Shown: positions 24,353-42,700 of the stretch, piece by piece
Position numbering within the stretch: the stretch's first letter is position 1
Layout: every line of letters starts with the position of its first letter
Source: Hyphomicrobiales bacterium
Lineage (GTDB): Bacteria; Pseudomonadota; Alphaproteobacteria; Rhizobiales; Xanthobacteraceae
NCBI GenBank assembly: GCA_017305715.1
Contig: JAFKKG010000011.1
Span: 186,001-250,000, forward strand
DNA length: 64,000 bases
Direction: 5' to 3'
The notes under the pieces: model-generated
What the model saw: the letters and a program-made list of their open reading frames with translations, nothing else
Database searches by the model: none
What the model was told of the DNA's origin: nothing
Program-made: the position numbers and the translations under genes

Positions 24353-24483
24353 CCCGCACGGACATGGTTAGCGGACTGCTTCGAGGAGTTGGCGCAATTT
24401 ACCATTCCACGAAGCAATTTATTTGCTAACGCATTTTGAACTTTCTGCCCGCCATATGAGACCCAGGGGAACATACCGAGGGC

Positions 24484-24630: not shown

Positions 24631-24700
24631 GGTCAGATTTTGCTAACCATAGCGCCGGATCATGCCGGCGCCCGGAATCCGGGCGCGTTCCGTCGCCGGG

Positions 24701-24832
24701 TCAGACGCTCCAGATCAGCGTCATCAGCACGACCGCAACCGTCAGCAGCCCGACGAACCGGATCATGAGTGTGCCCATGCCATGGGACGATTGCTGCAGC
24801 GGATGAATGTCGTTCGGCTGACTGTTTTGCAT
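24701..24832 (-). CDS. Small single-span membrane protein
   Basis: A 43-residue frame read on the minus strand: MQNSQPNDIHPLQQSSHGMG followed by a transmembrane helix LMIRFVGLLTVAVVLMTLIW and a two-residue end. AGGGAT lies 6 bases before the start. It faces the small membrane gene at 24484. Family and function unknown. Confidence 0.5.
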   Translation of the reverse strand: MQNSQPNDIHPLQQSSHGMGTLMIRFVGLLTVAVVLMTLIWSV

Positions 24833-24926
24833 CTCGTATCCCTGGAAGTTTGCCTATCGTTGGGCATCCGTCCCTTGATCCCGACGCGCTGCTTATAAGG
24901 TTTTCGGCAGTCACACACCAAACGAA

Positions 24927-24957
24927 ACCGCCGCCTTCCGGTAAAGAAGACGGCGGG
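24927..24957 (-). terminator. Terminator-like hairpin downstream of the 24993-25412 gene
   Basis: ACCCGCCG and CGGCGGT-type arms plus CTTC/GAAG pairing form a GC-rich stem on the minus strand, followed by TTTCGTTT. The U-tract is imperfect, so this is a moderate candidate. Confidence 0.45.
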
Positions 24958-24992
24958 TGTAGGATTTTTGCAACGGTCTTGCAGATGCTGAA

Positions 24993-25412
24993 TCAGCTGT
25001 TGCGCAGACCGTCCGCGGCGCGCTTCCACTGTGTGACGTTGTCGGCGATCATCCGCGTCGATTTCATCGCGGCCTGGCTGAGCTGCGCGTAGCCGGAGAT
25101 TTCGCGCTGAACGCGCTGGCCTTCGGCATGCAGCAGATCGCGCAGGCTTTCGAGTTCCGAAATCAGCTTCTCGATTTCGGCCAGCGAAGTTCCGGCGACG
25201 CGCTGGATCAGCGAGTTGACGTTGTTGACGGTGGCTTCCGCGCTGGCATCGAGCGGCACGGTTTCCGGGCTCGCGACCGACGGACGGCGCAGATAGGCAA
25301 TGTCGTTGCGGACGAAGTCGCGGATCCCGGCCTCGACCTCCGAGACCGCAGCGAGATTGCTGTCGACTTCCGTAGTTGAATCGATTTCATCGGATCGAAT
25401 GGTAGCGTTCAT
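24993..25412 (-). CDS. Conserved hypothetical helical protein
   Basis: A 139-residue protein with no signal peptide or membrane span. It is largely alpha-helical; the segment VNNVNSLIQRVAGTSLAEIE and ELESLRDLLHAEGQRVQREI looks like an amphipathic coiled coil, and the C-terminal KSTRMIADNVTQWKRAADGL continues it. I do not recognise a family. A terminator-like hairpin lies 40 bases downstream. Confidence 0.7.
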   Translation of the reverse strand: MNATIRSDEIDSTTEVDSNLAAVSEVEAGIRDFVRNDIAYLRRPSVASPETVPLDASAEATVNNVNSLIQRVAGTSLAEIEKLISELESLRDLLHAEGQRVQREISGYAQLSQAAMKSTRMIADNVTQWKRAADGLRNS

Positions 25413-25557
25413 CGGCTATTCCTCTGTTTCGCGATAAGCGAGCGCGGACGTCCCCCGCACGACGAAGTGAACGGCGCCATCTGGACTGCCGATTTTGACC
25501 GCATCTGGGCCGATATGCGGCAATGCTGCATCATTATGCCGACTGGTGAAGCGGGGC

Positions 25558-26487
25558 TTACCAGCTGCGCTTGAAGCCCGCGCCAAAACTCTTGTTGACG
25601 ACGCCCGACGGCGTCTCGCCGACGGAACCCGAGATGGTGATGCCGTCGAACAGTCTTTGCTCGGCGCCGACCCTGCGCAGCCATTTGTCTTCCGCGCTCG
25701 ACAGCGTCTGGCCGGCCATGAAGCTGGTTCCGGTGTCCGTGAGGCTCAATCTCGCCGACTGGTCGGTTTCGTAGCTGCGGGCCGGGTGGTTGACGATGCC
25801 GGGCACCGGCACGAAGCCCTGCTGGATCAGATTGTAGCCGTTCTGCAGCGTCAGCGAATATTGCTCGTTCAGCGGCAGCGACTTGCTGAGGGAGGTGCCG
25901 AGTCTGCTCTGGTCCGCCCCGGGATCGATGCGGGCTTCGACCGAGGTCTTGTCCCAGATCGAGCCGACGCCGGGGGCGGTGATCGCGGCCCAGGCGGTGC
26001 CGGATGATTGCGGTACGCTGCCGCCATTGGCGAGTTTCTCCGACAGCAGCTCCTGGGCGGTCAGCGTGCCCTGGCGGGCGACCGTCATGTCGGCGCCGAT
26101 CCGCGTATCCCAGAACGGGCTCAGCGACTGCTTGACCGATACCGCGGAGCTGCCGTTGGCCGCCCGGTTCGCCGACCATGTCGCCTCGGCGCTGGCCGCG
26201 GCTTTCGATGCGGCGCGACTCTTCGCGACCGGCCCGTCCAGCGGCGAGGCGTCGAGATCGAGCTGGCTCCAGTCGAGCTTGCTGACGTCGATGTCCTTCA
26301 TGATGTCGGGGTCATTGACGTCCACTGACGCGACGTCGGGCGCCACCGCGGATTCCTCGACCGACTCCTCCGCATCGTCACCAGCGGCGGGCGGCGTCTG
26401 CGCCGCTGCGGCCAGCACCGCAGCCAGGCTGAAGCCGGCCACCAGCATTGGCAGCCTCGTCCAGCCAAATCGTGTCGTGGAAGTCAT
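25558..26487 (-). CDS. Exported protein, possible outer-membrane beta-rich protein
   Basis: A 309-residue protein starting at 26487 (MTSTTRFGW) with a signal peptide (LPMLVAGFSLAAVLAAAAQT), an acidic spacer (DDAEESVEESAVAPDVASVD) and then about 200 residues of alternating beta pattern that ends in a Trp (GAGFKRSW), as many outer-membrane barrels end in an aromatic residue. I recognise no Pfam family. The open frame continues far upstream but through repeat DNA, so the shorter start is preferred. Confidence 0.65.
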   Translation of the reverse strand: MTSTTRFGWTRLPMLVAGFSLAAVLAAAAQTPPAAGDDAEESVEESAVAPDVASVDVNDPDIMKDIDVSKLDWSQLDLDASPLDGPVAKSRAASKAAASAEATWSANRAANGSSAVSVKQSLSPFWDTRIGADMTVARQGTLTAQELLSEKLANGGSVPQSSGTAWAAITAPGVGSIWDKTSVEARIDPGADQSRLGTSLSKSLPLNEQYSLTLQNGYNLIQQGFVPVPGIVNHPARSYETDQSARLSLTDTGTSFMAGQTLSSAEDKWLRRVGAEQRLFDGITISGSVGETPSGVVNKSFGAGFKRSW

Positions 26488-26798
26488 CACCCGCCCGCAT
26501 TCCAAATCGGGCGCAGAATGCGTTGGCGGTGGTGCGAAATTATGGCGAGGGCGCATTGGCGCGCCCTCGCGCTCCGTCATGTCCGGGCCACAGCGTGAAG
26601 CGCTGCATCGCTGCTCGATCAAGCGCGAAGCGCGCCGTCGCGCTGTTGTCGCGACCACGTCTTCCAGGGGCTGGTGAAGAAGACGCGGGTCCCCGCGACG
26701 CCCGGCCATGACGAAACCAATTGATCGGCTGCAGCTACGGTCAGAACCGAAGCTCCAGATTCTTGTTTTGACGCGTTTCAACTTCGCTCGAAGACGCT
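26488..26798. other. Repeat-containing spacer
   Basis: No gene is supported here. The stretch contains GCGAGGGCGC/GCGCCCTCGC arms at about 26548-26572 that form a hairpin, and the tail of a family-E-like repeat (CGGGTCCCCGCGACGCCCGG then CCATGACG, 26691-26711). It presumably holds the promoter of the exported-protein gene. Confidence 0.4.
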
Positions 26799-27233
26799 CT
26801 AAATCGCCATCCGCGGCAGGTGGATGGGATAGCCCACGGTCTGCTCGACGAGATCGAATGTGTCGACCAGCACGCGGAAGTTGGTCAGCTTGCCGGCCTT
26901 GAACTGCGCGAAATGCGCGATCCGCAGGCTGATCGGCTTGTTGGAATCCAGCGCGGTCAGCGAATAGCGCATCATCGAGGCGGCGGAATCGACCCCCAGC
27001 ATGATCGACTCGCGGTCGAAGCGATGGACGCGAACGTTTTCGGCGATCTGGCGGATCACTTCCATCACGGCCGGCTTGCCCTTGCGCGAGCCGAAGAACG
27101 GGAACATGTCGATCGGGCCATAGATCGCCCAATCGACGTCCTCGTCGACCAGGGCTTCGAGATCGGCGGGCTGGCGCTCATTGATCGCACGATGCAACGC
27201 GCGCGAAAAACGCCAGAGACTATGCTCTGTCAT
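26799..27233 (-). CDS. NTF2-like (SnoaL-type) protein, copy 1
   Basis: A 144-residue alpha+beta protein: HRAINERQPADLEALVDEDV, VDWAIYGPIDMFPFFGSRKG and FRVLVDTFDLVEQTVGY follow the nuclear-transport-factor-2 cone fold. Such proteins are isomerases, hydrolases or ligand-binding domains; no catalytic set can be assigned. It resembles the protein at 27843 along its whole length (IDTFDMVEQ in both C-terminal parts), so the pair arose by duplication. Confidence 0.85.
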   Translation of the reverse strand: MTEHSLWRFSRALHRAINERQPADLEALVDEDVDWAIYGPIDMFPFFGSRKGKPAVMEVIRQIAENVRVHRFDRESIMLGVDSAASMMRYSLTALDSNKPISLRIAHFAQFKAGKLTNFRVLVDTFDLVEQTVGYPIHLPRMAI

Positions 27234-27400
27234 TTCAGGTCGTCCTTGAAAGCTGGATTTCAAAAGCAACGGCCCAGGGGGCGTCAACAATGGCGCCGTG
27301 CCCGATTGCTTCACTCAATTATTTGAAGTCTGAAATAGGCGTGTTTCGCCAAAGCACAACCGGCGTTTTTGCATTGCACAAATGCGGGAATCCGGTGTTT

Positions 27401-27655
27401 TTACCGGTCCGGCTGGCGTTCGACGGCGATTGCGGTGTCCTTGATGGCGATCACGCCGAACAGCAGGGCGCCGGCGATCCCGCCGATGGCGGCGCCGATG
27501 GGCATGAAGGTGAAGAACACCAGCATGCCGCTATAGCCTTCAAAATTCGTGGTTTTGAAGATTTCGACCCAGGCCAGTCCGGCCCCGATGCCCAGGGCTG
27601 CACCGCCCAGAGTTCCCAACGCCAACCCCAGCAAAGCCAGCAACGCGATCTTCAT
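27401..27655 (-). CDS. Small two-span membrane protein
   Basis: An 84-residue protein with two glycine-rich hydrophobic helices (LLALLGLALGTLGGAALGIG and GMLVFFTFMPIGAAIGGIAG then ALLFGVIAI). The start at 27655 (MKIALLALL) follows AGAAGAAGCC. It lies between the two NTF2-like paralogues. No family is recognised. Confidence 0.7.
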   Translation of the reverse strand: MKIALLALLGLALGTLGGAALGIGAGLAWVEIFKTTNFEGYSGMLVFFTFMPIGAAIGGIAGALLFGVIAIKDTAIAVERQPDR

Positions 27656-27740
27656 GGCTTCTTCTTGTCCGCAAAATGCCTTGTGGTGTGTCTTGCCGGG
27701 CGCGCCGAGGTTCAATGATGCCCACAAATAACTGGCGCGC

Positions 27741-27835
27741 GTCATTCCGGGGCGCGAAACGAATCCGGAATCCCGGGATTCTCCGATGTGCACGTGCACA
27801 TCGTGGTTCGATGCTTTGCATCGCCCCGGAATGAC
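27741..27835. repeat. Intergenic repeat (family C), copy 1
   Basis: Outer inverted ends GTCATTCCGGGGCG and CGCCCCGGAATGAC enclose GGAATCCCGGGATTC and a perfect 20-bp palindrome centred at 27793 (CGATGTGCAC/GTGCACATCG). Relatives occur at 30760-30838, 31339-31378 (partial) and 63548-63643. Confidence 0.7.
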
Positions 27836-27842
27836 TGCATCT

Positions 27843-28286
27843 CTATTCCGGTCTATCGCCCTTCAGCACCGCGCTGATGTCGCGCTCGAGCACCTGCTCG
27901 ACCATGTCGAAGGTGTCGATGACCTCGCGGATCTGGGCGATGCGGCCGTCGCGAAAGCTGTAGAACGCCGCGATGTCGAACTGCACCATCCGCCCGTTGC
28001 TGCGCTTGCGGAAGAACACCCGGAGGTTCGCTGCCACCCGGTCGCCCTCGGCGACCAGGATCGGCACGTCGCAGCGCATCTCGGAATAGCGGCTGTGAAC
28101 GGTGGTCCACATCTGCCGCATCGCGTCCTTGCCCTGACGGTGACCCATATGGGGGAGGAGATCGACCGGCGCGTTGGCGATGAATTCGATGTCATCGGTG
28201 CAGCGCGACAGTGCGCCTTCGACATCGCCGGAATAAAAGATGTCGAGGAAATTCAGCACGCGCTGCCGATGCAGGTCCTCGGTCAT
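27843..28286 (-). CDS. NTF2-like (SnoaL-type) protein, copy 2
   Basis: A 147-residue NTF2-fold protein: VLNFLDIFYSGDVEGALSRC, NAPVDLLPHMGHRQGKDAMR and REVIDTFDMVEQVLERDISA. The start at 28286 (MTEDL) has GGAG at a good distance; a GTG five codons upstream is possible. It is a diverged duplicate of 26799-27233. Function unknown. Confidence 0.85.
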   Translation of the reverse strand: MTEDLHRQRVLNFLDIFYSGDVEGALSRCTDDIEFIANAPVDLLPHMGHRQGKDAMRQMWTTVHSRYSEMRCDVPILVAEGDRVAANLRVFFRKRSNGRMVQFDIAAFYSFRDGRIAQIREVIDTFDMVEQVLERDISAVLKGDRPE

Positions 28287-29345
28287 CCCGTCTTTCTCCA
28301 CTGCTGTCCGGCTCTCGCGGCGCCGGCTGTCTTGTCAACGCCGCAGCGCGGCCGCGGATCCGCAAGGGATCGCAGGGATATGACGTCGTGGGTGCGCAAA
28401 TGGTTCACTACCATGAGGTGTAGTTATCCGAATGCACGTGTCTTGGCCGGTTCCCTGGCTACGCCGTGAAGCAACACCATCTGCAAGTGGCGCCGGCCAG
28501 TTCGACTCACTTGCTGGTTGCATTGTGAGCCGATGCGCTGGTTTCGCAATGCGCTGAAATACGGAGGACCGCTGGCACAGACTGCATGGTGACGTTGCCG
28601 GCAGGCGGTGCGTTCGCGAGCGAATTGCGACGGATTCGAATTTCAAACAGCCGGGATGACGGGTAGACGCATGGGTTCGCATTCTCGCGACGCTTTGCGC
28701 CCGAAGTTTTTCAAAATCATCCGCCCTCTTCAAATGGAGGGCGCAGGGAATGCCGGATGCGCGCTGCACCCGCGGTCTCATGTGCAATGTGCACAAGGAA
28801 GTGCGCACATGAGCATACACGGCAGCGGAGAACATCCGACATTCCCTGCGCGATGGCTTTACGGCTTATCACGTGCTCTCCCCGGAGAACGGCTCTTTTG
28901 CCTCCGTTGCGCCCTGGGAAGTCAGACGCCTCCCAGGTGCATGGACGCCAGCATCGCGGCGTCAGGACCACACGCTTTTGCCGTACGCCTTTGTCGCGCG
29001 CGTCAAGCGCCACATCAGCGTCCACCGCTCCCCGCCCAACGTCCGTGACGACGGCCGACGCCCTTCTGACCAGGGCGGGATGGGCAAGATCGTAGCCCTG
29101 ATTTGCCATTTCGGAAAAGCGAAATATTTTTCGATTTGGGCCTTGACATCAATTCCGAAAATCATAAATGGCGGCCCCGGCTTTCCGCCTTCGCGCTTCG
29201 AGTTGCGGCCGGGCGCGTTTCTCGATGACGTCACGGAGCGGGAAGACGTTGAACTGACGGAACGGGCGGGCCTGCACGATGGAACCCGATGAGGGCACCG
29301 CCGTTATCTGGCCTGAAGTCATCGACCATCGGAAGGACCGTCGCC
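28287..29345. other. Gene-poor region of about 1 kb dominated by a structured repeat
   Basis: Many overlapping open frames exist in this GC-rich stretch on both strands, none with protein-like conservation or a good start. The part from about 28721 to 29140 is a structured repeat (separate entry). The flanks 28287-28720 and 29141-29345 show no recognised feature beyond a plausible promoter near TTGACATC (29143) for the small gene at 29346. Confidence 0.5.
28721..29140 (-). repeat. Structured repeat element with nested inverted repeats
   Basis: Successive inverted repeats are legible: CGCCCTC/GAGGGCG (28722-28743); GCGCAGGGAATGCCGGATG at 28741-28759 against its complement at 28833-28851, 18 of 19 matching; nested inside it CTCATGTGC/GCACATGAG (28777-28813); CCTGGGA/TCCCAGG (28913-28937); and GACGCC/GGCGTC (about 28944-28963). 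The series covers most of the element. From general familiarity, similar sequences recur in Bradyrhizobiaceae genomes and are often mis-annotated as short hypothetical proteins. It could encode a structured RNA or be a non-autonomous mobile unit. Confidence 0.6.
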
Positions 29346-29582
29346 ATGAAAGTCCGAACTCTGTTGCTTGCCGTTGCCGTGCTCACCCTTGCTGCGGGGG
29401 CGGCCGATGCGAAGGGCTGCCTGAAGGGGGCCGTGGTCGGCGGCGTGGCCGGCCATTACGCGGGCCATCATGGCGTGGTCGGCGCGATCGCCGGATGCGC
29501 TTATGGCCGCCACCGCGCCAATGAGCAGGAAAAACGTCAGACCCAGGGCGGCCAGCCGCCGGCGGGCCAGGAAAAGCTGTAG
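29346..29582 (+). CDS. Small exported glycine-zipper protein
   Basis: A 78-residue protein with a cleavable signal peptide (MKVRTLLLAVAVLTLAAGAA, DA) and a glycine-rich hydrophobic mature part (GAVVGGVAGHYAGHHGVVGA, IAGCAYG) in glycine-zipper spacing, then a Gln-rich polar tail. Glycine-zipper proteins of this kind are periplasmic or outer-membrane associated; the function is unknown. The gene that follows on the other strand ends 5 bases away. Confidence 0.75.
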   Translation: MKVRTLLLAVAVLTLAAGAADAKGCLKGAVVGGVAGHYAGHHGVVGAIAGCAYGRHRANEQEKRQTQGGQPPAGQEKL

Positions 29583-29586
29583 CCGA

Positions 29587-30404
29587 TCAATTCTGCGGCG
29601 TCACCTTGCGCGTCGCGAGGTCGACCATGAAGGTGCCACGCTTCTCTGAACCTTCGGGCACATAGGCGTCGCCGCGCGCGAGCTTTCCAAAGGTCTGCTT
29701 CGGTTTCGGGAAGCCCTTGTTGCAGGCCTTCCTGATCGTCTCGGCATCGGCATAGCCGGCTTTCACGGTCACGGTCTGCGGCCGCGGCCCGGCCTTGATC
29801 TCGGTGAACTCGAAATTTTTCGAACTCTCCTTGCAGGTGCGACATTGGCGCCGAACGCGCCGCTGGAATCTTCGGCCGTCACGAGCATGTCGGTCGCGAT
29901 GCTGATGTCCTTGTTGAAGTCGTGCGTGAACACCAGCTGCGCGACGCCGCTTTCCAGAATGCCCTGACCCATATGGCCGGTGAGGCAGGCCAGTTGATCC
30001 TGCCGTTCGCTCTTCAGCACCACGCAATCCCTGGCCTGCGAGCCCGGCGCAAAGCCCCGGAAAATGCTGTTGCCGCCGCTCTGCTCAAACACGACAGCGC
30101 CGCCATTGTCGGTCGCATGCGCTTCGCATCCGCTCTCGTAACTGACCACCAGCAGTGGATTGCCGGCGGCGACGAACCGGCCGCTATAGCGATTCTCGGT
30201 CAGCTTGACATCGCAGGCGCGGTTGCCGGCGTTTGGATATCCCTTTGCCTTGGTGCAGGCCGATCCCTTGATGTTGGCCGCCTCGCAGAACGCCAGGAGC
30301 AGCGCGCGGTCGGCATCTTGCGCATGGGCCAGCGATGGCAGGCATGCGCCGGCAAGGACCAGCATCAGGAGAGCATGGAGGGGTTTCGGCATCGGGAGGA
30401 TCAT
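29587..30404 (-). pseudogene. Secreted protein gene of unknown function, interrupted by a one-base frameshift
   Basis: The N-terminal half reads on from MPKPLHALLMLVLAGACLPS (signal peptide) through TENRYSGRFVAAGNPLLVVS to SSGAFGANV, then runs out of frame. The C-terminal half (RTCKESSKNFEFTEIKAGPR to DLATRKVTPQN) continues in another frame. Adding one base near 29840-29844 joins them as GANV-RTCKESS, so a single-base deletion explains the break. The intact product would be about 270 residues, Cys-containing and periplasmic. I do not recognise the family. It could be a true mutation or a sequencing error. Confidence 0.65.
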
Positions 30405-30563
30405 GGGTTCACGGAAGGTGAATGATCGGCATGATTTGATCAATATTGGTCGGCGCTGGAAGCGGAAGCGTTCAATCTCTCGTGCAAGGCATTTTGGGGC
30501 AGGGCCTGTGGGGAACGGGTGCCGCCGGTGCCGCGTTTGTCCTTCACGGCAATGGAGAACCCG

Positions 30564-30755
30564 ATGACGAAACCGCTGGAAAAGACCATCACGCCCGTTC
30601 CCGACGACAACCAGAGCCACAAGGGGCCGGGCAGCGCGCCGATGGTGCCGATCGACACCACCAAGGGCCACCGCGATGACGAGAAGCGCAACATCCGCGA
30701 ACAGGGCGATCACGGCAACATGGTGCAGAACACGAGCAACAAGAGGTCAGGGTGA
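30564..30755 (+). CDS. Small hydrophilic protein
   Basis: A 63-residue, strongly polar protein without Cys (MTKPLEKTITPVPDDNQSHK to NIREQGDHGNMVQNTSNKR). GGAGAA stands 4 bases before the ATG at 30564; an ATG four codons earlier is possible. Its composition suggests an intrinsically disordered, perhaps stress-related protein. No family is recognised. Confidence 0.55.
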   Translation: MTKPLEKTITPVPDDNQSHKGPGSAPMVPIDTTKGHRDDEKRNIREQGDHGNMVQNTSNKRSG

Positions 30756-30759
30756 TCTG

Positions 30760-30838
30760 TCATTCCGGGGCATCGCGAGCCGATGACCGCGGAATCCCGA
30801 GATTCCGGATTCAGCCCGGTCGGGCTGCCCCGAATGAA
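30760..30838. repeat. Intergenic repeat (family C), copy 2
   Basis: It begins TCATTCCGGGGCATCGCGAG and ends CCCGGTCGGGCTGCCCCGAA followed by TGA, with the inner GGAATCCCGAGATTCC hairpin, as in copy 1 at 27741. Confidence 0.6.
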
Positions 30839-30943
30839 GGCCTAATGACGTGACGCCCGTCACGTTGCCTGTCGGAGCGCGCAGCTAAATTGGCGGCATC
30901 GGATGACGTCTCCGCCGGGGACGCTCCTCGAGGAAACGCCGCC

Positions 30944-31330
30944 ATGAACGCGATCTCCGTGCCGAAATCCCGCCGGTTCAACCGCCTCGAAGGCATGGTG
31001 CTGACCGCCATCCTGCAGGGCCTTCCGACCTTCACCGCCGCAGCGCTGCTGCTCAAGCTCGCCGGCAGCGCCCAGATCGTGAAACCCCCGGGTGGCGCCG
31101 TGACCTTCGTCGTGATGGCGTCGCTGTTTCAGGCGCTGTTGATCCCCTGGCTGGCACCGAAATTCCCGAAGCTGTTCAAGGCCAGTTACACGCCGCTGTT
31201 CTTCGATGCCAGCCTGTCCTTTGCAGACAAGATCCTTCGCTGGCGCACCGAGCCGGTGGCCTCGTTGCAACTGCTCTCGCAGGTGGTGATGCTGTCGCTG
31301 CTGGCGGTGGCGGTGTTGAGCGTGGGGTGA
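30944..31330 (+). CDS. Small multi-span membrane protein
   Basis: A 128-residue protein beginning MNAISVPKSRRFNRLEGMVL with three likely hydrophobic helices (LTAILQGLPTFTAAALLLKL, TFVVMASLFQALLIPWLAP and LLSQVVMLSLLAVAVLSVG). GAGGAAACGCC precedes the ATG at 30944. No named family is recognised; homologues appear confined to related rhizobia as far as I can judge. Confidence 0.7.
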   Translation: MNAISVPKSRRFNRLEGMVLTAILQGLPTFTAAALLLKLAGSAQIVKPPGGAVTFVVMASLFQALLIPWLAPKFPKLFKASYTPLFFDASLSFADKILRWRTEPVASLQLLSQVVMLSLLAVAVLSVG

Positions 31331-31338
31331 GGGTGTCC

Positions 31339-31378
31339 GTCATTCCGGGGCGATGCGAAGCGTGAGCCCGGAATTGAC
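31339..31378. repeat. Intergenic repeat (family C), partial copy
   Basis: GTCATTCCGGGGCGATGCGA and AGCGTGAGCCCGGAATTGAC resemble the left half of the family C repeat; the right half is missing. Confidence 0.5.
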
Positions 31379-31478
31379 CTGTGCTGATGGGCACAAGCCG
31401 GCCTTGGAAGCAAAACGACGGTGATCCCGATCCGCAATGATGGTATATACGGCATTCTCATCTTATGTCGGGTGGTCC

Positions 31479-31697
31479 ATGAATATTCGCTCCGCCAAGG
31501 TCGATCAGCTCGCGCAACGGCTTGCCCGGCTGACCGGCGAAGACGTCGAAACCGCACTGGAGCGTGCGATTGAGGAACGGCTGTCTCGTGTTGCGCCGCC
31601 AGCACCCGCCGATCGAAAGGCGGCGCTGGATACGTTCTTCGAGCGGGCATCCCGCATGCCTGTCCTGGACGAGCGGGGTAAGGGGTGGTTCTGCTAG
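31479..31697 (+). pseudogene. vapB: VapB-family antitoxin, C-terminally truncated, without its toxin
   Basis: A 72-residue frame that matches the PSK/VapB antitoxin family (PF07704-like): MNIRSAKVDQLAQRLARLTG, EDVETALERAIEERLSRV and RMPVLDERG. Family members normally continue with a segment such as DEILGYDE and overlap a downstream vapC PIN toxin. Here the frame ends GKGWFC and a restriction-modification island begins at exactly this point, so the tail and the toxin gene appear to have been replaced by the insertion. This is a probable insertion scar rather than a working toxin-antitoxin pair. Confidence 0.65.
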
Positions 31698-32479
31698 TTG
31701 CCGCTTTCATCGATAAGCTGCTGTACTACTGCTTGGCTCTCACCAAACGTGACTATCGATGACGGTAGTCCGATTAGAATGAGTGGACATGGATTGCCAA
31801 CTCCACGCTGAACGCGGTCCTGCAGCTTGCTCCAATGCGTTGTCGCCATGCCGAACTTGTCGGAGACGAATTGATCGGTCCACGCGTCGCGGAACGGAAT
31901 TGGGTTTCGATCACGCGTGACGCGCTTCATCACCTCTCGAATTTGACGACGTGTGGGGTTGAGCCCAAGCCGATCCATGTCGTCGTGGGAGTTTACGTTG
32001 TTGTCCTCGGCAAAGCGCCGAACGAGAGAACTTATGGACTCCTGAAGGGTCGCCCCCCTCGTAATGATAATGCCTAGGGAAATGCCGCCGTCTGCATGAA
32101 GGCGTTTGAAGTTTTCGAGGTCGCGATCAAAAAAGGGGTCTTTATTATTCCACTCGATCTCAAGGGCAATCGTACCTGCGTCAAACGTCTTTACGTGATC
32201 GATTTCGTGGGACTGCGCCTCGCGTTCCACTCCATCGATAATCCGCTGCACCACGAAATTGTGTTTGCGCCAGTCGTGGGCAGCTAAAGCATTGCGGAGC
32301 CGTTGTGTTCCCTTGGTCTCTCCGCCGCCCGAACCAATGATTTCCTCAATGGGGATGGTCGAGGAAAGCAGGACACCCTCAAGTTGCTGAGCGACTTCCG
32401 GAAAGTCGACACCAAGAATGGCCTCAGCATGAGACCGAAATTCAATCTCGAAGCCGCGTTCTTTTAGGCGATCAAACAT
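31694..32479 (-). CDS. BglII/BstYI-family type II restriction endonuclease
   Basis: A 261-residue protein beginning MFDRLKERGFEIEFRSHAEA. The core ALEIEWNNKDPFFDRDLENF matches the signature EW-NNKD-FF-RDL of the BglII/BstYI endonuclease fold, with surrounding LHADGGISLGIIITRG. BstYI cuts R^GATCY and BglII A^GATCT; a GATC-centred target is a fair guess but not readable here. I start at ATG 32479, which has AGGAG about 11 bases upstream; a TTG start at 32509 is possible. It is divergent from the methyltransferase. Confidence 0.88.
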   Translation of the reverse strand: MFDRLKERGFEIEFRSHAEAILGVDFPEVAQQLEGVLLSSTIPIEEIIGSGGGETKGTQRLRNALAAHDWRKHNFVVQRIIDGVEREAQSHEIDHVKTFDAGTIALEIEWNNKDPFFDRDLENFKRLHADGGISLGIIITRGATLQESISSLVRRFAEDNNVNSHDDMDRLGLNPTRRQIREVMKRVTRDRNPIPFRDAWTDQFVSDKFGMATTHWSKLQDRVQRGVGNPCPLILIGLPSSIVTFGESQAVVQQLIDESGN

Positions 32480-32611
32480 TGGTTTCGGCGTCTCCTGTCC
32501 CAGCCTCAATATTTATCCACCATCCATCTTGAGAACGTAACGTGAACATGATATTATGTGTTGAGCATAACGCGTATACCGCCAGTCATGCCTAACGTCT
32601 TGGAGTCGCCG

Positions 32612-33250
32612 ATGCTTTCCGCCGGACAGGATTTGCTGCGTTTTGCGGATAAGCGACGGTTCGGGACGATCATGGCCGATCCACCGTGGCAATTTACCAA
32701 CAAGACCGGGAAGGTCGCGCCCGAGCACAAGCGCCTTGCTCGCTACGGCACCATGAAACTCGACGAGATTTGCGCACTTCCTGTGCCAGAGATCGCGGCT
32801 CCAACAGCCCATCTGTACCTGTGGTGCCCGAATGCGATGTTGCCGGATGGCCTCGCTGTCATGAAGGCGTGGGGCTTCACCTACAAGTCCAACATCGTCT
32901 GGCACAAGGTGCGGAAGGATGGTGGGTCGGATGGACGTGGCGTTGGGTTCTATTTTCGTAATGTGACTGAACTGATTTTGTTTGGTGTTCGCGGCAAGAA
33001 CGCGCGGACGCTTGCGCCGGGGCGGCGGCAGGTAAATCTGCTGGCAACGCGCAAGCGCGAGCATTCGCGCAAGCCCGATGAACAGTACGATATTATTGAG
33101 GCCTGTTCGCCGGGGCCGTTCGTTGAATTGTTCGGGCGTGGCACGCGTAAGGGTTGGAAGACGTGGGGCAATCAAGCCGATGATGGCTATGCCCCGACAT
33201 GGAAAACCTATGCCAATCATTCGCAGTCGGGATTAGTCGCGGCGGAGTAA
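32612..33250 (+). CDS. MT-A70-family DNA (adenine-N6) methyltransferase
   Basis: A 212-residue methyltransferase with the catalytic DPPW in GTIMADPPWQFTNKTG, HLYLWCPNAMLPDGLAVMKA, and WHKVRKDGG with GFYFRNVTELILFGVRGK. The MT-A70 class makes N6-methyladenine; bacterial members usually protect DNA beside a restriction enzyme. GGAG sits 6 bases before the ATG at 32612, which is preferred over in-frame ATGs at 32558 and 32588. It is the partner of the divergent endonuclease and lies 2 bases before the AIPR gene. Confidence 0.88.
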   Translation: MLSAGQDLLRFADKRRFGTIMADPPWQFTNKTGKVAPEHKRLARYGTMKLDEICALPVPEIAAPTAHLYLWCPNAMLPDGLAVMKAWGFTYKSNIVWHKVRKDGGSDGRGVGFYFRNVTELILFGVRGKNARTLAPGRRQVNLLATRKREHSRKPDEQYDIIEACSPGPFVELFGRGTRKGWKTWGNQADDGYAPTWKTYANHSQSGLVAAE

Positions 33251-33252
33251 GT

Positions 33253-34912
33253 ATGGCGGAAATCCAGCACTCACAGATTAAGAGTAAGCTGATCGAGTTA
33301 GTGGTGCCCCTTGTCGAACAATCCGACATTTTGGCTGCAGCCGATGCGGACAAGGAAGTGCACGCCCTTTCGCGCTCGATGGCAGCCGCGGCAATCAAAA
33401 TCCTGGCGGACGTTGACTATGATATCGCGTGCGCGGCTATCGTTGATGGGGGGAAAGACAACGGTATTGATGCCATTCACTATGACGCACAGGCCAAGAG
33501 CTTGTTTCTTGTTCAATCAAAGTGGAGCAGTTCGCATACGAGCTCCATCGCTAGTGGCGAAGTGCTGAAATTTCTGCAGGGAGTCCAAGATCTCGTTTCG
33601 CTGAAGAAGACTAGATTTAATGAGAAGATCCAAAGGCGCTGGAGTTTAATCGACGATGCCCTTAAGCGACTAACTAGCGTCCGGCTGGTGATCGCCTATC
33701 CGGGTTCTGGAAAAGTTGATCCTGATATCCAGGAGAAAATTGATGACTTTGTAAAGAGTCAGAACGACACCTCGGAATTGTTCTTCTTTACGCCTGTCAC
33801 TCAACGCGAGCTTTTTCAGCACTTTGTACATGAGGCGGCGCCGCCGCAAATCAATTTGGCGATCAGGCTCTCGCACTACGGCGTAGTGGAGAGTCCGCTA
33901 AGAGCGGTTTACGGCCAAGTCTCTGCAGCAGATGTTTCATCTTGGTATAAGAGTTATGGAAACAACCTATTTGCAGGGAACATCAGAAATTTCTTGGGAT
34001 CGTCTGAAGTAAATAAGGCTATCGAAACGACGCTTTTGTCTGACCCGGGACACTTTTGGTTCTACAACAATGGAATTACCATTATTGCGGTAGGCCTAAA
34101 GAGACAAGCTATCGGAGGGCATGACCGGTCCGTTGGTATTTTTGATTGCACAAATGTCACGATCGTGAACGGCGCCCAAACTGTGGGTACGATTGGCCGG
34201 ACGTTGCCAGGCGATGAAAGTGCGGCCTTTTTGCAGGCGCGCATTATCGAAGTTAGCGATCCGGAATCTTCATTGGGAAAGCTTATCACCCGTGCGTCGA
34301 ATACCCAGAATAAGATCGATGCGAGGAATTTTGTGGCGCTCGATCCAGAGCAGGAGCGCATCCGCACCGAACTGTTGATCGAGAAGGTCGTATACGAATA
34401 CAGAGAGGGTGAGCCCTTAGAGTCGACTGTTGATGGCTTTGAATTCATTTGAAGCCGTGACGACATTGGCTTGCGCAAGCGAAGAAATGTCTTATGTCGC
34501 TTTGTCCAAGGGGCATGTCGGTGGTCTTTACGCAGACATCACCATTACACCCTACAAAGCGTTGTTTAACCCATCGACGTCGTCGCGGAGCCTTTGGAGT
34601 CTCGTACAGTTAGCGCGTAGGATCGACAAAACTATTAAAGCGAAAGTCGACCAATCGTCGCCGACTCAGCGAGGGCTTGTTGTTCATGGCAACAGGTTTA
34701 CGTTGCATTGCATATTTCGACGTATCGGGAAGACTGACGATTTAAAAGTGAGCGATGAGATAGCGGATGCCGTTGTAGACGACGCTGTGGCCCATGTTCT
34801 CTCTGAGGTCGGAAAAATAATCGATAGCGATTACGAAGATGCCTATCTCGCACCGCTCTTCAAGAATGTGAAGAAGTGCTCGGATATTCGCTTGAAGTAC
34901 GAAATGCTGTGA
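33253..34912 (+). pseudogene. AIPR-family (abortive phage resistance) protein gene with a one-base frameshift
   Basis: The first frame (residues 1 to about 400) shows a PD-(D/E)xK-like nuclease pattern near residues 68-90 (VDGGKDNGIDAIHYDAQAK, then LFLVQSKW) and the AIPR core (FYNNGITIIA, then VNGAQTVGTIG and ITRASNTQNKIDARNF). It stops at VDGFEFI (34452). Removing one T from ATTTGAAG near 34449-34452 restores VDGFEFIEAVTTLACAS and continues to the natural end (SDIRLKYEML) at 34912. AIPR proteins were first linked to Lactococcus abortive infection (AbiR-type systems). Two bases separate it from the methyltransferase stop, so all three genes form one defence locus. Confidence 0.75.
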
Positions 34913-34934
34913 CGGCTTTCGCTGCTAGTCTACC

Positions 34935-37916
<2,982 letters not shown>

Positions 37917-37990
37917 GGGGCGAATATGGGGCTAATCGGCCCGTGAAAAAAGGGCAAAGCGGCGCGGATCGTCAGGATGCCACGCGGTGG

Positions 37991-38224
37991 TCAGGCGAAG
38001 ACGTCGTTGAAATTCGGCGCGGCGGCGGCGGGCGAATCCGGCTTGACGATGTCGAGATGGATGCCGCCACATTTCGTGCAGCGCATGGTCCAGTATTCGG
38101 CGCCGGCCTTGCCGGGAATGATGCGCAGCACCACCAGCGAGGCGCTGCATTGCGGACAGTTCGACATCACCTGCCGCGAAGAGGACGACGGCCGGCTGTC
38201 CGGGTGCGGCGCGGGCGGGGTCAT
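37991..38224 (-). CDS. Small zinc-ribbon protein
   Basis: A 77-residue protein. CPQCSASLVVLRIIPGK and MRCTKCGGIHLDIV supply two CxxC knuckles with the spacing of a zinc ribbon. Start at 38224 (MTPPAPHPD), 2 bases after the stop of the preceding small gene; an internal Met (MSNCPQC) gives a 58-residue form. Function unknown, possibly nucleic-acid or protein binding. Confidence 0.7.
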   Translation of the reverse strand: MTPPAPHPDSRPSSSSRQVMSNCPQCSASLVVLRIIPGKAGAEYWTMRCTKCGGIHLDIVKPDSPAAAAPNFNDVFA

Positions 38225-38226
38225 GA

Positions 38227-38463
38227 TCAGGCCGCCAACGAGATTGCGGCCGGCGCCGTCATGTAACGCTGCCGGTTCTGGTCGATATGCGCTTTCGCGT
38301 CCGCGATCGCCGCGTCCGGATCGGACCACGCAAAGCCGACTTCGAGCGTCCGAAACGACATGCCATCGATGACGACCGGCGCGAGATCGACGCGTTGAAT
38401 CCTGGCGTGCCATAGCCCCCTCCCTGCTTCGAACGACTGAATCTCAAAGCCGCCGTGAATCAT
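38227..38463 (-). CDS. Conserved hypothetical protein
   Basis: A 78-residue protein (MIHGGFEIQSFEAGRGLWHA to NRQRYMTAPAAISLAA) with an alpha+beta pattern and a segment ADAKAHIDQNRQRY near the end. No signal peptide or membrane span. A perfect 16-bp palindrome lies 54 bases upstream, in its likely promoter. It leads into the zinc-ribbon gene, so the two form a small operon. Confidence 0.65.
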   Translation of the reverse strand: MIHGGFEIQSFEAGRGLWHARIQRVDLAPVVIDGMSFRTLEVGFAWSDPDAAIADAKAHIDQNRQRYMTAPAAISLAA

Positions 38464-38516
38464 GCCAAAACTCCCCGGATGATCCGAAGAGCAGACCATG
38501 ATTGCGGCAGTGCCAA

Positions 38517-38532
38517 TGTGAACCGGTTCACA
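38517..38532. promoter_or_regulatory. Perfect 16-bp palindrome, LacI/GalR-like operator
   Basis: TGTGAACCGGTTCACA reads the same on both strands, with the central CG and TGTGAA half-sites seen in LacI/GalR-type operators. It lies between the flavin monooxygenase stop and the small conserved gene on the same strand, so it would control the latter. No LacI-family gene is in the window. Confidence 0.45.
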
Positions 38533-38560
38533 TCTGCCGCCTTTATTCGGCCGGGGAGGG

Positions 38561-39778
38561 TCAGCGGCGGGCGGCGATATGATCGGCGAGCACCGCGGCG
38601 TCGTCGCCGACGCCCGACAGGAAGGCGGAATAGAGTTTCGACAGATAGGGCAGGCCGAGGAAATAGAGCCCCGGCACCTCCGAGATGCCGTCCCGATGCA
38701 GCGGCTCGCCATCGCCGTTCCTGACCGGAAGGTCGATCCAACTGAAATCGACGCCATAGCCGGTGGCCCAGACCACCGCATGGATTTTCTCCTGGCCGAG
38801 GTCGAGGCGACGGATCGGATCGATGAGGCAAGGCGGATCGGCCAGCACGGCCCGGGCGGCGGGGTCATCGGGCAGATGAAGGCCGTGCTGTTCGACATGC
38901 GCGTCCAGCATGTCGAGGAAGCCGGCGTAATAGACATCCCCGGCCGCGATGCTCCCAGCGAGACCGGGGGCGATGTCGAGCACGCCGTCACGCGCCGTCT
39001 GCACCCGGCCCAGCAGCGTGACGCCATCGGCGGCGAAGCGGCGGAAGTCGATGGTATAGCCGCCATAGGCGCCCGTGATGGAGGGATTGACCCGGATCGG
39101 CCCGCGCTGCTCCGCCGTCATGTCGAACAGGCGGAGCGCTGCGAACCACCAGGTCAAATCCCGTCCGCGGTAGCGCCGGGGCATGCGGGTATGCTGGCCG
39201 ACCGCAAGAAAGACGCGGCGGCCGGCGCGATTCAGCTCGTCGGCGATCTGTGCTCCCGAGGCGCCCGCGCCAACCACCAGCACGGCGCCTGACGGAAGCT
39301 GGCCGGGATTCCTGTAGCCGCTGGCATGGACCTGAAACACCGGATGGCCGCGCAGCAGATCCGGCGCCACTGCGCGCTGATAGGGGCCGGTCGCGACCAC
39401 GACATTGCTGGCCTTGATGATGCCTCCAGGCGTCATGGCGATAAAGCCATCGTTGCCGCGCTTCAGGCTGATAACCTCGACGCCGCTGCGGATCGGCGGC
39501 GCCACGAACGCCGCAAAGGCGTCGAGGAAGTCCACGATCTCGCCGGTGCTTGCAAACGCATCCGGGTCGGTATGCGGAAAGGCAAAATCGGGAAGCTGCA
39601 CCGACCAGTTCGGAAACTGGAATTTCAGCCCGTCCCAGCGCTCGCTGCGCCAGCGTTCGGCAATCCGCGCCCGCTCCAGCACGAGATGCGCGATGCCGCG
39701 CTGCTTCAGCCGGTAGCTCATCACGAGCCCGGCCTGGCCGCCGCCGATCACCAGCGTGTCGATCCGTTCAGCCGGCAT
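38561..39778 (-). CDS. Flavin-containing monooxygenase/NAD(P)-binding oxidoreductase
   Basis: A 405-residue two-dinucleotide-fold flavoprotein: LVIGGGQAGLVMSYRLKQRG near the N terminus for FAD, VLVVGAGASGAQIADEL in the middle for NADPH, and ATGYGVDFSWIDLP near the end. The layout is that of the CzcO/FMO-like group. Substrate unknown. The start at 39778 lies inside the 3' end of the LysR gene (11-base overlap), so the two are coupled and the LysR protein is a likely regulator of this gene. Confidence 0.87.
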   Translation of the reverse strand: MPAERIDTLVIGGGQAGLVMSYRLKQRGIAHLVLERARIAERWRSERWDGLKFQFPNWSVQLPDFAFPHTDPDAFASTGEIVDFLDAFAAFVAPPIRSGVEVISLKRGNDGFIAMTPGGIIKASNVVVATGPYQRAVAPDLLRGHPVFQVHASGYRNPGQLPSGAVLVVGAGASGAQIADELNRAGRRVFLAVGQHTRMPRRYRGRDLTWWFAALRLFDMTAEQRGPIRVNPSITGAYGGYTIDFRRFAADGVTLLGRVQTARDGVLDIAPGLAGSIAAGDVYYAGFLDMLDAHVEQHGLHLPDDPAARAVLADPPCLIDPIRRLDLGQEKIHAVVWATGYGVDFSWIDLPVRNGDGEPLHRDGISEVPGLYFLGLPYLSKLYSAFLSGVGDDAAVLADHIAARR

Positions 39779-40673
39779 GGCGCGCGGCCTTGCGGCGGGC
39801 GGCGGGCTCGGCCGCGGACCGGATGATCCAGCGCCGGAACGCGGCAAAGTCGCGCTGGCCGGTGCGGAAGTCGCGATAGACCAGATACCAGCGCATGCCC
39901 TTCGGCACGCTCTGTGCAAACGGTGCGACTAGCCGCCCGGCGGCGAGGTCGTCGTCGATATAGGGCCGGATGCCCATCGCGATGCCGAGGCCGTCGACCG
40001 CGGCCTGCAGCGCCTGGCCGTAGAATTCAAACTCCGGCCCCCGCGCGGTCACGCGGGCGACGCTTGCCGCCTTCAGCCAGGACGGCCAATCGTCGGGCGA
40101 ATGCGCGACGCGGAGCAGCGCCGGTCCCTTCAGATCGGCGGGGCGCTTGAGGGCGTTGGCGAGCCGGGGCGCGCAGACCGGCAGCAGGTCGGCGGCGAAT
40201 AACGGCTCGGCGACGAGCCCCGGCCATTTGCCGTCGCCGAGCTGGATGCCGCAGCTCCAGTCGTCGCCGAACGGGGCCGCCGCGCCGCCGGTGGTGATGC
40301 GGACGTCGATATGGGGTTCTTCCTTGTAGAAATCCGCCAGCCGCGGGATCAGCCAGCGCATCGCAAATGTCGGCCCGACGCCGATGGTCAGCACGCGCAC
40401 GGACGAGGACGCGGTGACCTGCGCGGTGAGGCTCGCCAGCGCATCGAAGATCGGCGTCAGCCCGCTCTGATAGGCGCGTCCCGCCGCCGTGGTGACCAGC
40501 CGGTTGGCCTTGCGCTCGAACAAGGCGACGCCGAGACGTTCTTCCAGCAGATGCACCATCCGGCTGATCGCCGCTGCCGAGACGTTGAGCTCGTGGCCCG
40601 CCGCAGCAAAGCTGCCGCTGCGCGCCGCGGCCTCGAACGCCTTGATGCCGTTGAGAAAGAGCAGCCGCCGCAT
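39768..40673 (-). CDS. LysR-family transcriptional regulator (GcvA-like)
   Basis: A 301-residue regulator. The helix-turn-helix is FEAAARSGSFAAAGHELNVS, AAAISRMVHLLEERLGVALF, followed by a periplasmic-binding-protein-like sensor domain (VLTIGVGPTFAMRWLIPRLA). The 11-base overlap with the flavin monooxygenase suggests joint transcription, unlike the usual divergent LysR layout. It is divergent from the TauE-like permease at 40753, which could also be a target. Confidence 0.92.
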   Translation of the reverse strand: MRRLLFLNGIKAFEAAARSGSFAAAGHELNVSAAAISRMVHLLEERLGVALFERKANRLVTTAAGRAYQSGLTPIFDALASLTAQVTASSSVRVLTIGVGPTFAMRWLIPRLADFYKEEPHIDVRITTGGAAAPFGDDWSCGIQLGDGKWPGLVAEPLFAADLLPVCAPRLANALKRPADLKGPALLRVAHSPDDWPSWLKAASVARVTARGPEFEFYGQALQAAVDGLGIAMGIRPYIDDDLAAGRLVAPFAQSVPKGMRWYLVYRDFRTGQRDFAAFRRWIIRSAAEPAARRKAARHAG

Positions 40674-40752
40674 ACCAACCCTCAGGAAAACTTATGGCAG
40701 GGCAAGATAAACCAGTTTGCGCGGCAACGCCAAGCGCGGCAGAACTATCCCC

Positions 40753-41514
40753 ATGACGCCGCTTGTGATTGCCGCGCTGGGCCTGTTGATGGTCGCGACA
40801 GCTTTTCTGTCGGGCCTGTTCGGCATGGCCGGCGGCATGATCCTGATCGGCGTGCTGCTCGCCTTGATGCCGCTGCCGACCGCGATGGTGCTGCACGCGA
40901 TCACGCAGATGGCGTCCAACGGCTGGCGCGCCTTCCTGTGGCGCGCGCATATCCGCTGGCGGCCGGTGTTCGTCTATCTGATCGGCTGCGCGCTGGCGCT
41001 CGGCGTCTGGTCGCTGACCCTCTACGTGCCGGACAAGCCGATCGCGCTGCTGCTGCTCGGGATCACGCCGTTCATGGCGCGGCTGATGCCGAGGAATCTG
41101 GAGCCGAACCCCGACAGCATCTGGCAGGGCAGTTTTTACGGCTTCATCTGCATGGGCCTGATGCTGATGACCGGCGTGTCCGGTCCGTTGATGGATACGT
41201 TCTTCCTCGGCGGCAAATTCGACCGCCGCGAGATCGTCGCGACCAAGGCGACCTGCCAGGTCGCCAGCCACCTCACCAAGCTCGCTTATTTCGGCGGCAT
41301 CATCGACCAGGCTGCCACCCTCGATCCGGTGCTGGAGGCGGTCGCGATCGCCGCTTCCATGCTCGGCGCCACGCTGGCGCGGCGCATCCTCGAGGCGATG
41401 AGCGACGCGCAGTTCCGCACCTGGGCGGGACGGCTGATCACCACGGTCGCCAGCTATTACATCCTCTATGGCGGCTGGCTGCTGGTCACGCGCTCCAGCG
41501 CCATGGCTTTTTGA
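40753..41514 (+). CDS. TauE/SafE-family sulfite or anion permease
   Basis: A 253-residue membrane protein with about eight hydrophobic helices and the family pattern FLSGLFGMAGGMILIGVLLA at the N terminus and TGVSGPLMDTFFLGGKFDRR in the middle. TauE-type proteins export small organic or sulfur anions. The start is taken at 40753 (MTPLVIAAL). Its last codons fall in a triplicated 16-base repeat (41503-41550). Confidence 0.85.
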   Translation: MTPLVIAALGLLMVATAFLSGLFGMAGGMILIGVLLALMPLPTAMVLHAITQMASNGWRAFLWRAHIRWRPVFVYLIGCALALGVWSLTLYVPDKPIALLLLGITPFMARLMPRNLEPNPDSIWQGSFYGFICMGLMLMTGVSGPLMDTFFLGGKFDRREIVATKATCQVASHLTKLAYFGGIIDQAATLDPVLEAVAIAASMLGATLARRILEAMSDAQFRTWAGRLITTVASYYILYGGWLLVTRSSAMAF

Positions 41515-41550
41515 GAACGTGGCCTTTTGAGAACATGGCTTTTTGAGAGA
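41503..41550. repeat. Three tandem 16-base repeats at the permease stop codon
   Basis: ATGGCTTTTTGAGAAC, GTGGCCTTTTGAGAAC and ATGGCTTTTTGAGAGA are adjacent. The first contains the stop codon of the permease gene. Each unit encodes Met/Val-Ala-Phe and then a stop in its own frame. The tandem is probably a slippage duplication. Confidence 0.8.
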
Positions 41551-41567
41551 GAGAAGGGAGACCGCCG

Positions 41568-41807
41568 ATGACCGAGACGACAGACGCGCTGGTGCTCGAT
41601 CTCGTCGAATGGGTGGCGCGCGAGCCCAGGCCTTATGCCGAAGTGATCGAGACCTGGCGCACCTCATGCCCGCGCCTGACGATCTGGGAAGACGCGGTCG
41701 ATCGCGGCTATGTCGCGCGCCAGGCGGTCGAAGGCCTCGGTGTACATGTAGCGATCACCGAAGGCGGTCAGAAATTCCTGCGCGAGCATGGCCGCACGGG
41801 TTTCTAG
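41568..41807 (+). CDS. Small hypothetical protein, winged-helix-like
   Basis: A 79-residue protein: ALVLDLVEWVAREPRPYAEV, IETWRTSCPRLTIWEDAVDR, GYVARQAVEGLGVHVAITEG. The last part has the beta-turn-beta pattern of a winged helix wing and the first part fits two helices, but no family is certain. AGAAGGGAGACCGCCG precedes the ATG. The stop overlaps the convergent LysR stop by 4 bases. Its relation to the permease upstream (53 bases) is unclear. Confidence 0.65.
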   Translation: MTETTDALVLDLVEWVAREPRPYAEVIETWRTSCPRLTIWEDAVDRGYVARQAVEGLGVHVAITEGGQKFLREHGRTGF

Positions 41808-42700
41808 GACGGCGCTCCAGCGAGCTTGCCGACCCTGGATAGCAGCAGCTTCAGGATCGGCGACTTGTTGGCCTTGTGGTAGGCAATGACCAGATCGAGT
41901 GTCGGCACCTCTCCCTTCACCGGCCGGGTGGTGATCGACGCCGGCAGATATTGCCTGGTGTAGGCCGGCAGCATCATCACCGCGCGCGTCGACGTGATCA
42001 TCGAGATGGCGTGGACCACATTGTGCACTTCGTGTTCCGGCTTCAGATCGATACCGGCCCGCTTGAAATAGTCCAGAACGACCCGGCGCACCGCGGGGGC
42101 GGCCCTGGACGGAAGACAGAAATTCTCGTTCGCGATCTCCTGCGGCGCGATGGCCGTCTGCGAAGCCAGCTTATGGTCGCTCGGAAAAACGAAAACCAGG
42201 GGATCCGTGCGCACGCGCCTGCAGGCCAGATCTCCCATCGGTTCTTCCGGCCGGATGAAAGCCGCGTCGAGCTTGCGCCGCATCAAGGCTCTGGCGAGCA
42301 CCGGGGAGTAATCGCTCGACAGGCGGATTTCGATGCCGGGAAACTCGTCACGCAGGATGCGCTCCACCTCCGGCAGCAAACCGATTTCGGCCCCCGACAT
42401 GAAGCCGAGCGCAAAGCTCGGCTTCGCCGGCTGGGCGGCGCGCAGCGCGGCTTCCTTGGCGGCTTCTGCCTGAACCAGCGCCATGCGCGCATGTTCGAGA
42501 AAGGCCTTTCCGGCCGGCGTCAGTTCGACACCTTGCGCGCTGCGATTCATCAGGGGAACGCCGACCTCCTGTTCGAGATCGCGGATTTGCCGGCTCAACG
42601 ATGGCTGGGACGTGTGAAGCTTTTGCTCGGCGGCGACCGTCAAACTGCCGGCATCGGCCACGGCGATGAAATAGCGGAGGTGCCGGAGCTCCATCACCAA
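41804..42700 (-). CDS. LysR-family transcriptional regulator
   Basis: A 298-residue regulator. LRHLRYFIAVADAGSLTVAA, EQKLHTSQPSLSRQIRDLEQ, EVGVPLMNR is a canonical LysR helix-turn-helix of the CbbR/CatR-like branch; the effector domain contains FALGFMSGAEIGLLPEVERI. The ATG at 42700 could also be the next one at 42694 (MELRHL). It is divergent from the secreted protein at 42852 across a 151-base region that probably holds its target promoter. Confidence 0.92.
   Translation of the reverse strand: MVMELRHLRYFIAVADAGSLTVAAEQKLHTSQPSLSRQIRDLEQEVGVPLMNRSAQGVELTPAGKAFLEHARMALVQAEAAKEAALRAAQPAKPSFALGFMSGAEIGLLPEVERILRDEFPGIEIRLSSDYSPVLARALMRRKLDAAFIRPEEPMGDLACRRVRTDPLVFVFPSDHKLASQTAIAPQEIANENFCLPSRAAPAVRRVVLDYFKRAGIDLKPEHEVHNVVHAISMITSTRAVMMLPAYTRQYLPASITTRPVKGEVPTLDLVIAYHKANKSPILKLLLSRVGKLAGAPS

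Follow-up and report, generated by a model that had tools for sequence, protein, structure and literature searches.

The 64,000-nucleotide stretch of a Hyphomicrobiales bacterium (Xanthobacteraceae) analyzed here (assembly GCA_017305715.1, contig JAFKKG010000011.1, positions 186,001 to 250,000; hereafter the window) carries a restriction-modification (R-M) pair of type II in a variable site at the 3' end of uvrB, together with a third gene that varies among relatives and that in the window is a frameshifted AIPR/AbiU-type gene. We hold this reading as probable, at roughly 0.78. A first-pass annotation of the same DNA had recognized three genes in AT-richer sequence, a BglII/BstYI-like endonuclease, a divergent MT-A70 methyltransferase, and an AIPR gene, and both the gene identities and the setting stand. 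Each of the three matches its family, and guanine-cytosine (GC) content, measured over 500-base intervals, is 0.48-0.57 across 31750-35000 versus 0.58-0.72 in the remainder of 24000-42000.

The endonuclease gene (31694..32509, minus strand) matches PF09195 above cut-off over profile positions 1-162 of 163 (E 8.6e-24). Its candidate start is the ATG at 32479, which is also the start in the open reading frame (ORF) of a close relative (L074), and the TTG at 32509 merely gives the longest ORF. As candidates for the catalytic residues, H101, D104, E117, E119, N121, N122, K123, and D124 are invariant in 15 endonuclease sequences. The DNA adenine methyltransferase gene (32558..33250, plus strand, exact start uncertain) matches MT-A70 (PF05063) over the whole profile (1-172 of 172, E 5.7e-31) and has the DPPW motif, as ADPPW. 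It also matches the PADLOC model MTase_II (E 4.7e-91) and, among solved structures, an MT-A70 family protein (E 2.2e-16) and METTL3 (E 4.5e-15). Of the 26 genomes with an endonuclease match, 24 have the methyltransferase next to it, the other two (G219 and G234) falling outside the fetched loci. The family matches and this adjacency across genomes support well the earlier proposal of a type II pair, which is also found on plasmids and viral contigs. The endonuclease family and the adjacent methyltransferase are what the locus has in common with known BglII/BstYI type II R-M systems. Two plasmid relatives are annotated as "BglII/BstYI family type II restriction endonuclease" beside "MT-A70 family methyltransferase"; those pairs are convergent and lack an AIPR gene within 2.6 kb, whereas the window pair is divergent and has a third gene after the methyltransferase.

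In the mechanism we propose, the MT-A70 enzyme would methylate adenine in a short site and so mark self DNA, and the divergently transcribed BglII-family endonuclease would cut the same site when unmarked; the first-pass annotation had put forward a putative GATC-type site. The variable third gene, here of the AIPR/AbiU type with a predicted nuclease domain, is placed behind the methyltransferase as in a methyltransferase operon, and in relatives with an intact copy it is probably an extra phage-defence effector, co-expressed with the protective methyltransferase. We infer the enzymatic activities, the shared site, the operon, and any AIPR role from gene content and layout.

The island (31375..34934) occupies the interval between a conserved left flank and the uvrB stop, as delimited by blastn of window positions 25-38 kb against the 18 nearest same-genus sites. 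Left-flank homology stops at a point that varies among the relatives with an empty site (31306-31374), and uvrB homology starts at 34933-34937. The uvrB gene (34935..37916, minus strand; NCBIfam excinuclease UvrB, 1071.9 bits versus a cut-off of 743) is convergent with the island, belongs to the flank rather than to the system, and provides the insertion site with its 3' end. Seven of the 18 relatives (G012, G002, G008, G005, G013, G011, and G007) have an empty site with 4-77 bp from left flank to uvrB; G011 carries two copies of the flank gene. Other genes could be named at the site in five relatives. In four of these, the family names are of defence type: a DndB-like fusion accompanied by an MT-A70 gene (G003), a DndB-like gene with a D12 methyltransferase (G016), a DndB-like gene scoring 25.6 bits, below the 29.1 cut-off (G018), and a DpnI-family gene followed by a further ORF before uvrB (G004). 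The fifth (G015) has a Ham1/AAA gene and a GHMP-kinase-like gene, which are not clearly defence, and the remaining six sites are unclassified. The site thus has conserved flanks, is empty in some relatives, and holds other defence genes in others, as a defence hotspot does.

The methyltransferase recurs with changing company. At an identity of at least 69% (E 8.3e-79 or better), it is present in 50 of 391 genomes of the family; 35 further genomes with a match of at most 60% identity were left out of this census. Adding G055 and G003 gave 52 chromosomal loci, in which partners were sought within 2.6 kb. A BglII-type endonuclease is present in 26 of these, only an HNH gene in two, and only a DndB-like gene in five. 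The 26 endonuclease loci have extra genes, namely AIPR in five (short forms included, and the only AIPR genes beside the methyltransferase in the 52 loci), an HNH gene in one, a second BglII-type gene in two, and a 403-amino-acid gene with no Pfam match in one; the endonuclease locus of G258 also carries a Panacea antitoxin-like gene. Convergent uvrB lies downstream in 23 of the 52 loci, and some of the other 29 end too early to tell. The slot between methyltransferase and uvrB in these 23 measures at most 132 bp in six, and elsewhere contains a long AIPR (three), a short AIPR (two), an HNH gene (one), a BglII-type gene (three, in G204 its only one), the 403-amino-acid gene (one), the Panacea gene plus another ORF (one), or other or unclassified DNA (six). 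G086 and G183, which belong to one genus, share the R-M layout and differ in the third gene. Both the endonuclease and the third gene exchange around a constant methyltransferase, and this recurrence at one site is a feature beyond an ordinary type II pair. Among ten sequences compared, the window methyltransferase is overall nearest to those of G389, G055, and G418. A crossover inside the methyltransferase gene was considered and dropped: sliding identity resolved no breakpoint, so we claim module exchange and not a mapped crossover.

Outside the chromosomes, 13 of the best 28 of 68 viral methyltransferase loci (at least 61% identity) have the endonuclease, one of them with HNH as well, and 15 have none of the partners searched. 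AIPR was found within 2.6 kb of the methyltransferase at none of these best 28 viral loci and at neither of two plasmid loci. Several loci show other arrangements. In L137, L142, L146, L148, and L165, which are AT-rich, the same MT-A70 methyltransferase has DndB-like proteins as neighbours, some of them fusions of about 650-810 amino acids. A BglII-type endonuclease was not found within 2.6 kb at any of the five, three of which end close by, and these loci may represent a different restriction system. In L129 and L131, the sole partner found for the methyltransferase is an HNH-family protein with the conserved motif GSFTKNF, and relatives of this protein are encoded near the pair in L074, L040, and L192. 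In L043 (G055), the BglII-type endonuclease gene at 9121-9964 is divided between two frames, and the neighbouring methyltransferase and short AIPR genes are open.

The AIPR frame opens at 33253, two bases past the methyltransferase stop, exactly as the first-pass annotation had placed it. Its view of a single open gene reaching 34915 fails, since the frame is stopped by a TGA at 34450-34452 and the C-terminal part of the protein is encoded in another frame (34430..34912, plus strand). The first part (33253..34452, plus strand) comprises an N domain (approximately residues 1-182) and the first half of the AIPR domain; it matches PF10592 (E 8.2e-36), covering only profile positions 1-154 of 308, and PADLOC AbiU (E 2.2e-34). 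Two relatives have a single open frame of 551 (G397) and 553 (G183) amino acids, directly behind the same methyltransferase and with another BglII-type endonuclease as neighbour. Identity to the window endonuclease is only 32% in G397 and 27% in G183, and the G397 protein falls in the same Pfam family (E 1.6e-43). Synonymous sites are saturated, precluding a ratio of nonsynonymous to synonymous change, and we used amino acid identity and codon-position differences instead. The N part is 86% and 83% identical to the two intact copies, which are 84% identical to each other; for the C part, the values are 77% and 72% (77% and 73% when the remainder ORF is matched to the C-terminal parts of the relatives) versus 73% between the intact copies. 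Because the broken AIPR is no more diverged than the intact copies are mutually, the frameshift appears to be either a recent mutation or an assembly error. Another broken long AIPR gene, divided between two frames, occurs in the uncultured Lacinutrix locus L155 (8001-9696).

Close relatives of this AIPR are rare. The first part matches 30 of the 391 family genomes (E 1e-10 or better), and copies of at least 83% identity occur only in G000, G397, and G183, the next best being 42% identical. In these three genomes, AIPR begins 1-3 bases past the methyltransferase stop, on the same strand and at the uvrB site. The close methyltransferase is present in five of the 30 AIPR genomes, compared with about 3.8 expected by chance (50 x 30 / 391), so there is no genome-level excess. 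The two genes are linked in three of the five; in G086 and G137, they lie on different contigs. Two other AIPR loci of the family that were fetched wide (G332 and G399) lack the pair in those stretches. Of 357 genomes drawn across the order, 26 have the methyltransferase (E 1e-70) and four the long AIPR (E 1e-40); two have both, and the window genome is the sole case in which they share a contig. Elsewhere, the pair is absent from the fetched flanks of 43 AIPR loci (35 viral, four from other genomes, and four plasmid). The viral scans used two short peptide patterns each and are not exhaustive; the scan of other genomes gave four distant loci (31-38%) and may leave out the nearest kin of the window. 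Sought in other genomes, as the first-pass annotation had envisaged, the arrangement is kept in three of the 391 family genomes and in the fetched flanks of none of the 43 AIPR loci elsewhere. A phage-borne trio was dropped as a candidate, the close AIPR set matching no viral locus and the wider profile yielding the 35 viral loci without the pair in the fetched flanks.

Short AIPR proteins lacking the N domain are encoded in the same slot in G055 and G389, in opposite orientations and with 40-42% mutual identity. Profile comparison relates the short and long forms (probability 96.7%, E 3.3e-10). A common superfamily of AIPR and DndB-like proteins, considered in the same way, received a probability of 0.2-0.4%, and the two are therefore counted here as separate kinds. 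On a 5,627-bp mobilizable Klebsiella plasmid (L035, NZ_CP070017.1, 970-2730), a long AIPR gene directly follows the replication gene, and records similar in size are among the matches.

The N domain had been proposed to look like a PD-(D/E)xK nuclease by virtue of an Asp...QxK pattern. The pattern is real: D65, D69, G71, I72, D73, Q88, and K90 are invariant across 30 aligned AIPR sequences, that of the window included. A first model built from five sequences reached a predicted local distance difference test (pLDDT) score of 64.5, and a second, built from 30, a mean of 79.2, with 76-93 in blocks of ten over residues 1-180. The second model is mixed alpha/beta, with helices followed by strands 74-78 and 83-89, helix 101-115, strand 142-148, helix 157-170, and strand 177-182, and it places D73 just before strand 74-78 and Q88 within strand 83-89. 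HEPN domains are all-helical and do not fit the modelled order of elements, which fits a PD-(D/E)xK core. Foldseek returned no solved structure at E 0.001 or better for either model. Among the 30 members, Mrr_cat was matched by two (E 0.059) and Mrr_cat_2 by one (E 0.062), and unrelated families scored alike. In a viral structure library, the top two matches of the second model are a 223-amino-acid protein and an AIPR protein of one phage (BFVD A0A8S5R4D7 and A0A8S5R496), so the nuclease-like and AIPR domains seem to be separate genes there. The modelling that the first-pass annotation had called for thus favours a PD-(D/E)xK-like nuclease fold over HEPN as a plausible assignment, at the level of predicted structure and with no significant solved match.

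Some observations weigh against our reading of the locus. The endonuclease profile matched no solved structure, and the single endonuclease sequence matched just a designed protein (E 0.49). At 19 of the 52 methyltransferase loci, no partner of the types sought turned up, and some of these methyltransferases may therefore be orphans or have unrecognized partners; six of the 19 lie near a contig or locus edge, and one of the six (G088) has a short endonuclease-like match. If the break in AIPR is an assembly error, the gene may also work in the window genome. A draft error is possible because the assembly is in 51 contigs, and neither part of the gene shows relaxed constraint, which would also suit a programmed frameshift. 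That a full-length protein is made in either of these ways nevertheless strikes us as decidedly unlikely, as both intact relatives read through with no change of frame, and inspection by eye of the sequence upstream of the stop found neither a slippery signal nor one resembling a ribosome-binding site.

What the third gene does is the harder choice. It could be a passenger, one of several unrelated genes gathering at a tolerant site by uvrB with no functional link to the methyltransferase, and we give this not quite even odds. DndB-like, DpnI-family, D12 methyltransferase, or Ham1/GHMP-type genes lie near the same uvrB end in relatives, third genes occur on either strand, and the viral and plasmid AIPR loci examined lack the pair. 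Against a mere passenger stand the 1-3 base spacing and shared strand of the long AIPR behind the methyltransferase in three genomes, and the HNH family, which supplies the third gene in one genome and the sole methyltransferase partner found in two others. The same spacing, kept by the three AIPR copies of at least 83% identity despite endonucleases only 26-32% identical, is an argument for a true three-gene system, in which the endonuclease would act first and AIPR, produced along with the methyltransferase and inactive while DNA is methylated, would back it up by suicide or a second cut. Short AIPR genes occupy the slot in two more genomes, and the available text of three papers places AIPR in R-M loci (PMC3506569, PMC2292703, PMC5608340). 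Such a system is nonetheless doubtful: AIPR is missing within 2.6 kb at all of the best 28 viral and both plasmid methyltransferase loci, the pair is missing at all 43 AIPR loci elsewhere, the five shared genomes barely differ from the 3.8 expected, 18 of the 23 uvrB-linked loci have a slot that is empty or filled otherwise, and AIPR is broken in the window genome while the R-M genes are open. The joint two-layer defence of the first-pass annotation accordingly survives only narrowly, as a pair kept with a long AIPR in three of 391 genomes, set against a frameshifted AIPR here and a methyltransferase mostly without AIPR; functional coupling of AIPR with the pair is a hypothesis. On our preferred reading, an R-M pair with a variable third gene, the working unit in the window is most likely the pair alone and the second layer probably does not work, since AIPR is frameshifted.

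Among known systems, the MZA system is approached in one component, the window AIPR domain matching MzaE at E 9.1e-13 with 47.6 bits against a cut-off of 1050. The neighbours named at the window locus are the vapB-like gene, the R-M genes, and uvrB; MzaA-D were not searched one by one. PrrC/PrrI differs from the window locus in R-M type, effector, and gene order. The likeness to that anticodon nuclease tied to R-M, which is named in the accessible part of PMC3506569, is a second effector within an R-M locus. Coupling of AbiU/AIPR to R-M loci, as immunity plus suicide, is a published hypothesis in the portions available of Iyer 2008 (PMC2292703) and Makarova 2012 (PMC3506569). The latter, in the same portion, states an N-terminal HEPN domain for AIPR and names type III R-M, whereas the N domain in the window is predicted to be alpha/beta and PD-(D/E)xK-like and the R-M system is type II. 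Excerpts of further papers describe Pin25611FIII of Prevotella intermedia, where an AIPR gene is likewise part of a type II R-M operon (PMC5608340), AIPR in an island with type I R-M (PMC5379612), and an MZA-like gene set (PMC9523054). The defence hotspots of P2/P4-like phages, as the consulted part of PMC9122126 presents them, resemble the uvrB site in having conserved flanks and alternative defence genes in one slot; the window site differs in being chromosomal at uvrB, in a large-genome bacterial family, and in its recurrent methyltransferase. Our literature search, which left most subscription journals outside its scope, returned no description of the exact gene set or of the uvrB site. 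The statement that the trio had not been described may hold for that exact set, to which we limit any claim of novelty, because the link between AIPR and R-M and the two-layer idea were already published in 2008 and 2012 (PMC2292703 and PMC3506569, each as far as its available text goes).

Two further features lie at the left edge of the island. An ORF of 86 amino acids (31437..31697, plus strand) resembles VapB/Rv0623-type antitoxins (PF07704, E 3.1e-13) and overlaps the 3' end of the endonuclease gene on the opposite strand, with no toxin ORF between; it is possibly the scar of an earlier toxin-antitoxin module. The final 37 bases of the left flank (31338-31374) have two matching places in G012 by blastn, so the island may be bordered by a short dispersed repeat.

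A broader interpretation, which we regard as unlikely, is that the self mark of one conserved MT-A70 enzyme serves several unrelated, exchangeable effectors (two kinds of BglII-type endonuclease, HNH, DndB-like fusion, and AIPR with its own PD-(D/E)xK-like domain), and that loci with two effectors are stacked restriction systems, in which this methylation also restrains AIPR as a second nuclease. The occurrence at one site of the same methyltransferase with or without AIPR, with two endonucleases, and with other third genes offers natural comparisons for the hypothesis of AIPR as a second layer. If the methyltransferase is indeed shared in this way, restriction would be organized more modularly than as a fixed pairing of one endonuclease with one methyltransferase, and the surroundings of methyltransferases that look orphaned among unfamiliar genes would be worth searching for new nucleases.

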